From: a virus | Length of the DNA: 23,314 nt | Strand: one strand, 5' to 3' | IMG/VR virus record: IMGVR_UViG_3300025727_000055 | Location: 1 to 23,314 of that record | Part shown: positions 2,020 to 5,930 of the stretch, piece by piece | Position numbering within the stretch: the stretch's first letter is position 1 | How the letters are laid out: every line of letters begins with the position of its first letter | Position numbers and translations under genes: made by a program | The notes under the pieces: generated by a model | The model's database searches: none | What the model was told of the DNA's origin: nothing | Seen by the model: only the letters and a program-made list of their open reading frames with translations

Positions 2020-3003
2020 TTATTTTACCGGAATCGGTTCTGAGATCAGTCTACCAAGTAAAATGTTGTATGCCAACGTCACGCACTGAGGGACGGCTGA
2101 GTTGCCAAGAGATCGAAGCCTGTCCACCCGATAGGCAGCCCCATGAGAGTCTCCACGAACTGTGGGTTGAGGAGAACCTGACTCGTTCCATCTGTCCCAC
2201 CCTTCTGTGTCGTCCCGTGCAGGAGGGAAGCATCCGTAAGAGTCATGCCAGCTTTGGACTTCCAGTGATCCCGTCTCCCTGTTTCCCGTCTTGAATGTGT
2301 TGACGCTGTGGCTGTCGGCCATAAGGCTGCTTGAGAAGGTAGATGGCTTTGCCTGTCTGCCCTTCTCTGCGCCCAATCCATATTTGGACCCACTTCCTTC
2401 CACATGTTCGCTGTTGGCGTAGCCCATTGCAATTGATCTAAGAGTGGCGACTCTTCTGGCCCACGGCCGGATGTCAATGTCTTCTCTATGGGCCAACAGG
2501 AATAACCTTTGTCTTTTATGGGGCGCTTGGGCATCACTTGCGTTGAACAATCCCCACTCCGCAGAGTACCCCATTTTGGCAAGATCGAAGAGAACTTCAT
2601 AAAGGCCTCTTTCGACAAGTCCGGGTGTATTCTCGATAAAGATTTGGCACGGCCTGCAGTCCTGACTAATTCGATAAATGTGAGGCCAAAGCCATCTGTC
2701 GTCTGCCGTTCCTCCGTGTTTACCGGCATACGAAAAAGGCTGGCAGGGGATGCCTGCAGAGATGATGTCCACGCATCCACTCCAGTCTGTGCTGTTAAAG
2801 GTTGTGAGATCGTCCCAAATAGGCGCACGATCCAAGGTCTGTTCTTCCATCCTCGCCACAAGAATGGCCGCAGCGAAGGCATCCCTTTCGATGTAACCCA
2901 CAGTGAGAGCTCCGAGTGCTGCTTGAAGTCCAAGGTCGATTGCTCCGATACCAGAGCAGGCAGATAGGTGTTTTGGGTGTAGATCCATTGACTCAACTGA
3001 CAT
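2020..3003 (-). CDS. C5-cytosine DNA methyltransferase
   Basis: The gene encodes a Dcm/HhaI-type enzyme that transfers a methyl group from SAM to C5 of cytosine. From the ATG at 3003 (327 aa), motif I is SACSGIGAIDLG (residues 14-25). Motif IV is PCQPFS (86-91) with catalytic Cys87. ENTPG (124-128) stands for motif VI, QRLFL (165-169) for motif VIII and GNSAVP (about 300-305) for motif X. The target-recognition stretch between VIII and X is short, about 130 residues. The gene overlaps the glycosyltransferase stop by 11 bases. The start is uncertain: TTG 3024 and ATG 2988 are also in frame, and none has an ideal ribosome site. No cognate restriction endonuclease is visible, so it looks like an orphan phage enzyme protecting against host restriction or marking phage DNA. 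Confidence 0.92.
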   Translation of the reverse strand: MSVESMDLHPKHLSACSGIGAIDLGLQAALGALTVGYIERDAFAAAILVARMEEQTLDRAPIWDDLTTFNSTDWSGCVDIISAGIPCQPFSYAGKHGGTADDRWLWPHIYRISQDCRPCQIFIENTPGLVERGLYEVLFDLAKMGYSAEWGLFNASDAQAPHKRQRLFLLAHREDIDIRPWARRVATLRSIAMGYANSEHVEGSGSKYGLGAEKGRQAKPSTFSSSLMADSHSVNTFKTGNRETGSLEVQSWHDSYGCFPPARDDTEGWDRWNESGSPQPTVRGDSHGAAYRVDRLRSLGNSAVPQCVTLAYNILLGRLISEPIPVK

Positions 3004-4114
3004 GAACCTGACTGACTGCTCCAATCTCCTGGAGCCTCATAGCCATCTTGGCTGCCGCCCTGTCCCATGTGTGAGTCCTCTGTAGCCCCATTCCGGCCGC
3101 TATTGTAAGACTTTTATAAGACTCATAGTTATCAGCTACGCTTTGCATCTTTTCTCTCAAGTCGTCTTGGTCTGGCTCCGCCCACTTGCCGCCATATTGG
3201 TATAAGCCATGCTGTCCGCCTCTATGCTGATGCGTATACTCCCACTTAAAGTTCAGGGGTATTGATTTATCTGCAAATTCTGTGCAGGCGGTTGCATTGG
3301 TGCATATGGTTGGAGTGCCGCATGCAATGGCTGTAAATGGAACCAGTCCCCAGCCTTCTCCTGAAGTTGGATAAACTAAACAATGAACGCTACGGTACAG
3401 TGCAGATATCTCCTCATCTGTGATCATCTCGTCAACGACTGTGACTTGGGGGTGGTTGTAGATACTCCCAAGGTTCTCACCGTTTTTAATGTTCCTAACT
3501 GAGCAGGCGCCGGAGGATTTTACGATTAAGTGATAGTCGCTATTGCCCTCAAACAAATCCATAAACGCATTATAGGCATATTGAGCATTCTTCCTTTCTG
3601 AAGGAGAGCCGAACGATAGAAAGGTAAACTTATCTGTTCGGGGTGCTTCATATGACATCCAGTATACTTCTGGGTCAACCCCCTGGTTAAAGTCTTTAAT
3701 AGAATTGTTCACTTCTTGCTTCTCATACACGCCGCGTATGAACTTTGAAGATGTCCATATTTCATCCATTGAGTTCATATGAGGCACCCAGAATTCAGGA
3801 ACAGTATCTGTTTCCCAGTATGTCATCCCGATGTTTATACCAGTACCTTTGATATATGTATTTGGTAAGCAGTGGTTAATGACAGGGGGGCCGCCAGTAT
3901 CGACAGTAAACTCATAGATAAGATATTTAATAGCATCCTTCAACTCAGGAGCCAGGTCAGAAGGTATAATGCTATATATACCAAGCTTTTTTAAAGCTTC
4001 AGTGTATTTTGCAAATGCATATCCGTACCCCTCTTTGGGGACATACGTTGACGAATTCCAGTATACAGCCTGTTCGTTGGAGATTGCATCAAGAAGTTCT
4101 GGCTTTATTTTCAT
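2993..4114 (-). CDS. GT4-like glycosyltransferase
   Basis: This is a 373-aa protein of the GT-B fold. The second Rossmann half shows LSFGSPSERKN (about 166-176), with Arg-Lys for the donor phosphates, DYHLIVKS (193-200), and the C-terminal signature PTSGEGWGLVPFTAIACGTP (249-268). GT4 enzymes move a sugar from a nucleotide donor. The usual E-x7-E pair is E253-x7-T261, so the second Glu is missing; the rightward paralogue at 6213 also lacks it. The two share several blocks (DEIW/DQIWT, S-G/GDLPRKN, YPTxGEG, ICTNxTxCTE). A GGAGGG site about nine bases upstream fixes ATG 4114. It heads the operon with the DNA methyltransferase and probably uses the extended -10 promoter at 4142-4150. The acceptor (DNA, capsid or host surface) cannot be told from sequence. 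Confidence 0.85.
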   Translation of the reverse strand: MKIKPELLDAISNEQAVYWNSSTYVPKEGYGYAFAKYTEALKKLGIYSIIPSDLAPELKDAIKYLIYEFTVDTGGPPVINHCLPNTYIKGTGINIGMTYWETDTVPEFWVPHMNSMDEIWTSSKFIRGVYEKQEVNNSIKDFNQGVDPEVYWMSYEAPRTDKFTFLSFGSPSERKNAQYAYNAFMDLFEGNSDYHLIVKSSGACSVRNIKNGENLGSIYNHPQVTVVDEMITDEEISALYRSVHCLVYPTSGEGWGLVPFTAIACGTPTICTNATACTEFADKSIPLNFKWEYTHQHRGGQHGLYQYGGKWAEPDQDDLREKMQSVADNYESYKSLTIAAGMGLQRTHTWDRAAAKMAMRLQEIGAVSQVHVS

Positions 4115-4141: not shown

Positions 4142-4150
4142 ATTATAGCA
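4142..4150 (-). promoter_or_regulatory. Extended -10 promoter for the glycosyltransferase-methyltransferase operon
   Basis: On the minus strand the site reads TGCTATAAT, a perfect -10 with the TGn extension; no good -35 is seen. The predicted start near 4135 would give a leader of about 20 bases containing the GGAGGG site of the glycosyltransferase. The identical nonamer occurs at 17610-17618 before a fibre gene. Confidence 0.55.
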
Positions 4151-4186: not shown

Positions 4187-4285
4187 TGAGGAGGAGGGGG
4201 GTCGAACCCCTCAAGCGTGTCCCAAGGTAGGATAACTATATGGCCTGCTGCACTAACAAGCTGTTGCTCTGCACCGGCACTCCTC
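4187..4285 (-). ncRNA. tRNA-like RNA (T-arm plus acceptor stem, atypical middle)
   Basis: On the minus strand the RNA begins GAGGAG at 4285 and ends CTCCTC-A at 4187, giving a perfect 6-bp closing stem. Just inside the 3' side is a T-arm with a 6-bp stem GAGGGG/CCCCTC and loop TTCGACC; read as 7+5 there is one T-C mismatch. The two helices add to 12 bp, as in the tRNA acceptor/T stack. The middle (about 66 bases) does not fold as a normal D and anticodon arm. Instead GCC...GGC, TGCA...TGCA and AACA...TGTT pair into one long arm (4278-4243). CCA is not encoded. A TTGTTT-17-TATAAT promoter predicts a start right at 4285. It may be a degenerate or unusual tRNA, or a structured leader. A 60-aa ORF over the same bases has its ATG inside the -10. 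Confidence 0.45.
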
Positions 4286-4291
4286 TTGGAC

Positions 4292-4320
4292 ATTATAAAC
4301 TATTTTGTGTAAGAAAACAA
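4292..4320 (-). promoter_or_regulatory. Sigma-70 type promoter for the tRNA-like RNA
   Basis: On the minus strand there is TTGTTT (4320-4315), a 17-base spacer and TATAAT (4297-4292). Transcription should begin about seven bases further, at 4285-4286. It lies immediately after the terminator of the upstream leftward operon, so a fresh transcription unit starts here. Confidence 0.65.
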
Positions 4321-4382
4321 AAAAAGGCCCCAAGCACAACTGACTAAACCTTGCGGTAGATAGTCAAGGGCTTGGGGCTTCA
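4319..4382 (-). terminator. Rho-independent terminator, leftward
   Basis: The hairpin GCCCCAAGC/GCTTGGGGC has 9 bp, with an inner TGACTA/TAGTCA helix in the loop. On the minus strand it is followed by a run of seven T, as expected for intrinsic termination of the transcript from the holin-candidate gene. On the plus strand no T run follows the stem, so it works mainly leftward. Confidence 0.85.
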
Positions 4383-4412
4383 AATTCAGTATAACACTTC
4401 TGGGGTTAAAAA

Positions 4413-4655
4413 TCAACCTATATGGGGAATACTAGATGTATAAACTTTTAATATTCCTTTCACTTCTGCTAGGTCTTCACGAACCTCTGCCATCTCATCC
4501 TGCAGCTTCCCTACCTGACGAAACAGATCACCTCTCCCATTTTTAATCCCTACATTGTTTAAATTATTCTTCCTTTGACGTATGTGTGCGACTACTATTG
4601 CACCTACATTGGCAACAATGATTGCCGATAAACCAAAGATACTATTTATATCCAC
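4413..4655 (-). CDS. Holin-like protein: one membrane helix plus coiled coil (DUF2746-like)
   Basis: This is an 80-aa protein starting at GTG 4655, five bases after a GGAGGG site. Residues about 5-24 form one membrane segment followed by a basic stretch (RQRKN). Residues about 45-72 are a heptad-like acidic helix (VGKLQDEMAEVREDLAEVKG). An N-terminal helix, basic stop and charged coiled coil resemble the DUF2746-type small proteins of actinobacteriophages, often annotated as holin candidates. That likeness is by architecture and by the pattern K-N-G-x-G-x-L before the coil, not by a database match. It is the last gene before the strong terminator, so it closes its operon. No endolysin is seen in the window. 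Confidence 0.7.
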   Translation of the reverse strand: MDINSIFGLSAIIVANVGAIVVAHIRQRKNNLNNVGIKNGRGDLFRQVGKLQDEMAEVREDLAEVKGILKVYTSSIPHIG

Positions 4656-5730: not shown

Positions 5731-5930
5731 CTAGCATGCTAGTAACTAGTACTAGTAATACCTCTATATTTAAGATTACTTATATATAGATATATCTTAG
5801 CTAGCTAGTAGCTAGTAGCTAGTAACTAGTACTAGTAACTTAGATCTGAAAGAGGAAAGAACTTTATTTATTTGACACATCTGGAGAAGTAGAATAAACT
5901 TTATTTAAATAGTCTAGGAAGCAGCTAGTG
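5731..5930. repeat. CTAG-rich repeat region in the divergent intergenic zone
   Basis: No gene is seen from 5645 to 6015. A 21-bp sequence, starting GCTAGTAACTAG and ending CTAGTAA, is repeated identically at 5738-5758 and 5818-5838. Between them is an AT-only-like stretch (TATATATAGATATATC, 5781-5796) and tandem GCTAGTA units. I count twelve CTAG tetranucleotides between 5731 and 5930. ACTTTATTTA also occurs twice (5861-5870 and 5898-5907). AT-richness, direct repeats and position at a transcription divergence suggest an origin or a regulator array; neither is proven. Confidence 0.7.
5872..5900 (+). promoter_or_regulatory. Rightward promoter TTGACA-17-TAAACT
   Basis: A perfect -35 TTGACA (5872-5877) is followed after 17 bases by TAAACT (5895-5900). 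It points towards the zinc-ribbon/glycosyltransferase operon, giving a leader of about 110 bases that includes the TTATCCAGC repeats. Confidence 0.5.

Follow-up and report, generated by a model that had tools for sequence, protein, structure and literature searches.

The locus lies in the viral metagenome record IMGVR_UViG_3300025727_000055, and the window analyzed here is the whole of that record (23,314 nt, positions 1 to 23,314). According to Pfam and PHROG assignments, the minus strand up to about 5.5 kb encodes a methyltransferase, a glycosyltransferase (GT), and small proteins, and beyond about 5.5 kb the plus strand carries GT2, ribonucleotide reductase, portal, protease, and capsid genes. 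The portal protein shares 46% identity with its counterpart in Streptomyces phage Faust (Stanwilliamsviridae), and the gene layout is common to both phages. Searches of isolate phage and plasmid databases, at the DNA or protein level, gave short partial matches only and no full one, and the same phage was present at about 100% identity in three further contigs. The L004 contig is about 80% identical to the window over 7.5 kb. The L108 contig (85 kb) is far more distant and was reached through a search with the neighboring 80-aa gene. An actinobacterial host is likely for these phages because L108 carries two WhiB genes. At the start of the methyltransferase gene (window about 2708-2990), third positions differ between the window and L004 by 6.7%, against 38-52% in neighboring genes, which suggests a recent exchange of that stretch. 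The features of the locus are as follows.

2993-4114, minus strand: GT gene of 373 aa with the Shine-Dalgarno site GGAGG, downstream of the tRNA-like RNA (Pfam/PHROG).
4142-4147, minus strand: separate −10 box TATAAT before the GT gene, read from the sequence; TACAAT in L004.
4187-4285, minus strand: tRNA-like RNA of 99 nt, with a predicted 5′ end at G4285, a discriminator-like A4187, and no CCA.
4188-4193, minus strand: 3′ strand CTCCTC of the acceptor-like stem, in perfect 6-bp pairing with GAGGAG (4285-4280).
4194-4212, minus strand: T-like arm with a 6-bp stem, GAGGGG (4212-4207)/CCCCTC (4199-4194), and the loop TTCGACC (4206-4200); compensatory changes in 2 of 6 pairs.
About 4221-4232, minus strand: small hairpin where type II tRNAs have their variable arm; 3 pairs, with 8 of 9 cells paired and both-side changes in 2; the weakest helix.
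4243-4278, minus strand: long arm standing where a tRNA has its D and anticodon arms, made of three helices with an A bulge; 11 pairs, paired in all three sequences, with both-side changes in 3.
4280-4285, minus strand: 5′ strand GAGGAG of the acceptor-like stem; compensatory changes in 2 of 6 pairs (window, L004, and L108).
4292-4320, minus strand: promoter of the tRNA-like RNA, with −35 TTGTTT (4320-4315), a 17-nt spacer, and −10 TATAAT (4297-4292).
4319-4381, minus strand: conserved small RNA with a terminal T run, a separate gene.
4388-4416, minus strand: promoter of the small RNA, TTGATT-17-TATACT, with equal spacing in L004, L027, and L035.
4413-4655, minus strand: 80-aa gene upstream of both RNAs, the synteny anchor.

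The small RNA is roughly 65 nt long and consists of a 9-bp outer stem, an inner helix, a capped ACC/GGU helix, and the T run. It lies directly behind the 80-aa gene, and 4 of its 16 pairs show compensatory changes. A sequence-only reading of this DNA had taken its end for a strong terminator that isolates the downstream RNA from the upstream operon. The hairpin with its T run is indeed there, but it closes a complete small RNA gene that is conserved and has a promoter of its own. About ten related contigs have the gene in this position (L004, L027, L035, L108, L116-L118, and L120-L123), and possible analogues were seen in L036, L109-L111, and L113. Neither the tRNA-like RNA nor a homologous GT gene was found downstream of it in the regions read or scanned of L027, L035, L116-L118, and L120-L123. 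One locus holds, in other words, a second small RNA gene that is conserved more widely than the tRNA-like RNA. No Rfam family matched the small RNA, with only a weak resemblance to NsiR1 (E 0.068). A model built from seven relatives matched the L108 copy weakly (E 0.048) and missed the window copy, probably because the RNAalifold structure omitted the middle helix; the window copy was identified by alignment with the relatives.

The tRNA-like RNA reads GAGGAG-(67 nt)-GAGGGG-TTCGACC-CCCCTC-CTCCTC-A on the minus strand (4285-4187). Its acceptor-like stem and T-like arm form a 12-bp stack split 6+6, as the sequence-only reading had described, and the comparison with relatives upholds the stem, the arm, the loop, and the stack. 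The single long arm of that reading was also found, but the interior has 67 bases, not 66, and the second, small hairpin had been missed. The window contains a single 12-bp stack of this kind with a TTCRANY loop; dinucleotide shuffling reproduced it in 5 of 150 sequences when G-U pairs were allowed and in none of 150 when only Watson-Crick pairs counted. The minimum free energy of the window RNA is unremarkable by itself (z −1.42), and that of the L108 homologue gives z −2.77. Folded alone, the L004 RNA prefers a different interior with two shorter arms, so the interior fold rests on comparison and not on energies. There is a GG near positions 11-12 of the window and L004 RNAs, but it falls within the long arm. 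No shared D-loop GG partner for the T-loop was identified, so a true D-loop/T-loop elbow would be hypothetical.

The promoter places G4285 seven bases past the −10 box. The −35 box matches the consensus in 3 of 6 positions and hence was not listed by a consensus promoter scanner. In L004, the −10 box is identical and the −35 box nearly so, while about half of the 17-nt spacer differs; L108 has TTGACA-18-TATTAT in the equivalent position. The proposal that the RNA has its own promoter is borne out by these data, and so is the separate −10 box proposed for the downstream genes. The proposal that it stands alone is not, as no terminator was found between the RNA and the downstream gene in the window or L108. 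A homologous GT gene follows the element in both L004 (86%) and L108 (60%). The order is RNA and then GT in the window and L004, and RNA, ferredoxin, and GT in L108. Reading L108 by eye, the ferredoxin ATG begins 4 nt past the discriminator A (CAAAAUG) and lacks a Shine-Dalgarno site, and the GT gene has a TATACT box 7 nt ahead of its ATG. Also by eye, the starts of ferredoxin (L108 5551-5555) and GT (5863-5879) both appear leaderless. The linker to the next gene differs completely by lineage, with 72 nt against 4 nt.

Three lineages only (the window, L004, and L108) form the basis of the family. The L004 element differs from the window element by 6 substitutions in 99 nt and one inserted base, a divergence below that of the surroundings (6/99 against about 20%, 19.5%; p 1.4e-4). 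One acceptor pair is changed from G-C to A-U in L004, and the T-loop is TTCGAYY in all three sequences (TTCGACC in the window, TTCGATC in L004, and TTCGATT in L108). The L108 homologue is 100 nt long, GGGAAG-(68 nt)-GAGAAG-TTCGATT-CTTCTC-CTTCCC-A, and its sequence is largely different from that of the window. Its position matches, after the equivalent 80-aa gene and small RNA, and its fold predicted on its own has the same architecture. A covariance model made from the window and L004 alone matched L108 at E 9.5e-6 in a search of 530 kb, and the next-best match was a genuine tRNA-Leu at E 4.7. Weak matches in L060 and L053 were a coding repeat and a terminator-like hairpin and were rejected as homologues. 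A scan with a 17-mer interior pattern found, besides the close copies and the L004 contig, unrelated coding sequences only.

MAFFT put the long arm of the three RNAs out of register, and we replaced its alignment with a structure-aware one made through the two-sequence model. Standard pairs then fill 77 of 78 cells, and both sides are changed in 9 of 26 pairs (acceptor 2, long arm 3, small hairpin 2, and T stem 2), in keeping with the sequence-only expectation of compensatory changes in relatives. Since this alignment was fitted to the structure, the pair counts are somewhat inflated, although the changes in the acceptor and T stem can be seen with no fitting at all. None of 500 shuffles reached the observed pairing, and partners slid by one column were paired in about 50-52% of cells. 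The shape persists in two related viruses although the letters differ, so we take the tRNA-like structure, on this sequence comparison, to be a conserved real RNA beyond chance.

An open frame of 60 aa (4293-4111) runs through the element, and the element might be part of a small protein gene or a chance fold. The frame shares 4 nt with the start of the following gene, and its third positions account for 4 of the 6 L004 changes within the RNA (p 0.10). However, it is frameshifted in L004, all three L108 frames contain stops, and its ATG falls within the −10 box of the RNA promoter; the conserved protein frame that the sequence-only reading had raised was not found. Third positions within the element differ between the window and L004 in 4 of 33 cases, against 0.38-0.52 in neighboring genes (methyltransferase excepted), far too few for a protein gene alone. 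Searches with the frame found neither a protein family nor a distant homologue. We regard the frame as rejected and a small gene or chance fold as the least probable account of the locus, with a negligible chance of being right.

Among known RNAs, ARAGORN and Rfam RF00005 gave no match to a canonical tRNA in the window element, L004, or L108. An anticodon arm (5 bp, 7-nt loop, U33) reaches at most 3 of 5 pairs in the window and L004. Neither Rfam nor ARAGORN reported a tmRNA, and the element has only 99-100 nt. The Rfam YrlA model did not match it at E up to 10. By the sequence features tested, the element is not a canonical tRNA, a tmRNA, or a YrlA-type Y RNA. Outside the family, the three-sequence model scored best in phage Faust on tRNA-Ser(UGA), the 3′ part of tmRNA, and four more tRNA genes (best E 0.051), which fits a type II-like outline. 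The Faust genome carries many tRNA and RNA ligase genes, together with a polynucleotide kinase and a Ro protein. In the whole 85-kb L108 record (L148-L152) no canonical tRNA gene was found, though many relatives have several; the only tRNA-shaped RNA seen there is the tRNA-like RNA.

The sequence-only reading had offered, besides a decoy or mimic, an unusual tRNA or a decayed one. A functional but aberrant type II tRNA would still decode through a CUUGU anticodon-like loop (Thr UGU, or in another register Asn GUU/Asp GUC). Within the interior, CUUGUYRGUGCA ranks among the best conserved stretches. Aligned to phage tRNA-Asn/Thr, bases 1-46 of the window RNA outscore 395 of 400 shuffles (5 do as well), and three tRNA-Thr genes lie in the corresponding region of Faust, with the tRNA-Ser match noted above pointing the same way. 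Yet the tRNA programs fail in all three sequences, no proper anticodon arm can be drawn, the long arm covaries, and the 5′ half of the L108 RNA does not resemble tRNA (its score is reached by 306 of 400 shuffles). We therefore find a decoding tRNA quite improbable, and descent from tRNA-Thr/Asn is possible, with weak sequence signs in the window and none in L108. A decayed tRNA pseudogene would explain a tRNA-like T-arm and acceptor where related phages hold tRNA genes. However, all helices are kept by compensatory changes across phages whose GTs are only about 60% alike, the promoter is kept, and the element diverges less than its surroundings. Because the covarying helices include the non-tRNA long arm itself, decay is very unlikely. 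The element might also be a partner of Ro60 (Rsr), a Y RNA-like tRNA mimic of new topology. Bacterial Y RNAs are known tRNA mimics and have been reported in phages (PMC8394870; PMC12282133), and in the related Faust a Ro-like protein gene has a YrlA-like RNA just upstream. Against this, no TROVE gene was found in the 23-kb window record or the 85-kb L108 record, either of which may be a fragment, and YrlA has a separate basal stem whereas the ends of the element form an acceptor. We consider a Ro60 partner unlikely. The Faust RNA is unannotated and lies at about 68.7 kb (L147 about 1195-1360), upstream of the annotated Ro-like gene gp159; it has a basal stem CCCCTGAAGATT/AATCTTCAGGGG and a permuted tRNA-like domain with GGGTTCGAATCCC (Rfam YrlA E 0.19). 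With the Ro-like gene and this RNA in Faust, tRNA mimicry exists in the phage group in another form.

As the best explanation, we tentatively propose that the element is a phage gene for a tRNA mimic of about 100 nt that is matured at its 3′ end by the host and acts in trans. The structure, conservation, and promoter of such a mimic are supported by the sequence comparisons. Transcription would start at the first acceptor-stem base or no more than about 3 nt away, leaving little or no 5′ trimming and thus little work for RNase P. The RNA would fold into the 12-bp acceptor/T stack with a canonical T-loop sequence, and with the long arm where the D and anticodon arms belong and the small hairpin at the variable-arm site, it is probably unable to decode. 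RNase Z, which cuts CCA-less pre-tRNAs and recognizes the elbow (PMC4810234), may cut after the discriminator A and free the RNA from the downstream mRNA, perhaps followed by CCA addition; we infer this enzyme because CCA is missing and a discriminator A is present. The mature RNA might then occupy a host tRNA-binding protein during infection, such as a processing, modifying, or tRNA-cleaving enzyme. Phage tRNAs counter tRNA-cleaving defenses according to two reports (PMC10264068, PMC11555353). The covarying structure, RNA-level constraint, the kept promoter, the tRNA-like model matches, the separate −10 box of the GT gene, and the tRNA, RNA ligase, kinase, and Ro genes of Faust favor a mimic. 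Against it speak the failure to identify a D-loop partner, the small number of lineages found (three), the missing terminator, and the constant adjacency to a homologous GT gene.

The last two of these points fit the main rival, a cis-acting tRNA-like 5′ leader of the downstream operon, which would protect the mRNA 5′ end or be cut by tRNA-processing enzymes, with the released RNA as a by-product. The cut would set a new 5′ end, in L108 that of a nearly leaderless ferredoxin mRNA; with the ferredoxin ATG 4 nt past the discriminator A, the L108 RNA is also a 5′ leader. The RNA always lies immediately upstream of GT or ferredoxin-GT genes and is absent from relatives that share the small-RNA synteny but not the GT gene. 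Suitable enzymes exist: tRNA-like structures of other phage RNAs and mRNAs are RNase P substrates (PMC11143913), and RNase Z accepts CCA-less tRNAs. On the other side, GT has its own promoter-like −10 box in the window (4147-4142) and L108, so the RNA would not be needed as its leader in the window. The wholly different linkers argue against a leader too, and a full tRNA-like fold seems elaborate for such a role. Between a decoy or mimic and a cis-acting leader, we regard the leader as a serious possibility, somewhat less probable than the trans-acting mimic. It is a more speculative, rather doubtful extension of the mimic proposal that the three RNAs represent a new family of anticodon-less phage tRNA mimics in actinophage relatives, decoying host tRNA-handling or tRNA-cleaving enzymes. 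At least one member would come from a large contig in which no canonical tRNA gene was found.

Phages commonly encode tRNAs and tRNA mimics. If the element is a mimic, it keeps only the acceptor/T half of a tRNA and would set resemblance to a tRNA, as tRNA enzymes see it, apart from being one. It would also be a compact test object, an RNA of a DNA phage with a conserved non-decoding arm. Because tRNA finders miss it, further members may sit unannotated in phage genomes.

Canonical type II tRNAs (Ser/Leu) and phage tRNAs share with the element the 12-bp acceptor/T stack, the T-loop UUCRANY, a discriminator A without CCA, a hairpin in the variable-arm position, and a similar length. Their stack is split 7+5 rather than 6+6, and they have D and anticodon arms with an anticodon where the element has one long covarying arm. 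YrlA (RF02553) is likewise a phage-encoded tRNA mimic with a T-arm, but its Ro60 basal stem stands apart from the tRNA-like domain, with a Ro60 gene nearby, and the Faust Y RNA has a T-arm-first order that the element does not share. The tRNA-like domain of tmRNA also combines an acceptor/T-arm mimic with a long helix replacing the anticodon arm; the element, at about 100 nt, has no tag frame. C4 antisense RNA (P1/P7) and bacteriophage M3 RNA are phage RNAs recognized by a tRNA-processing enzyme, RNase P (PMC11143913). The parallel concerns such recognition; for the element, whose transcript would begin directly with the stem, maturation at the 3′ end would be the more important step. The 3′ tRNA-like structures of plant viruses such as TYMV (PMC4810234) show viral mimicry of the acceptor and T-loop, with another topology elsewhere; they use a pseudoknotted acceptor at the genome 3′ end, whereas the element belongs to a DNA phage and lies at an mRNA 5′ end or forms a separate RNA.
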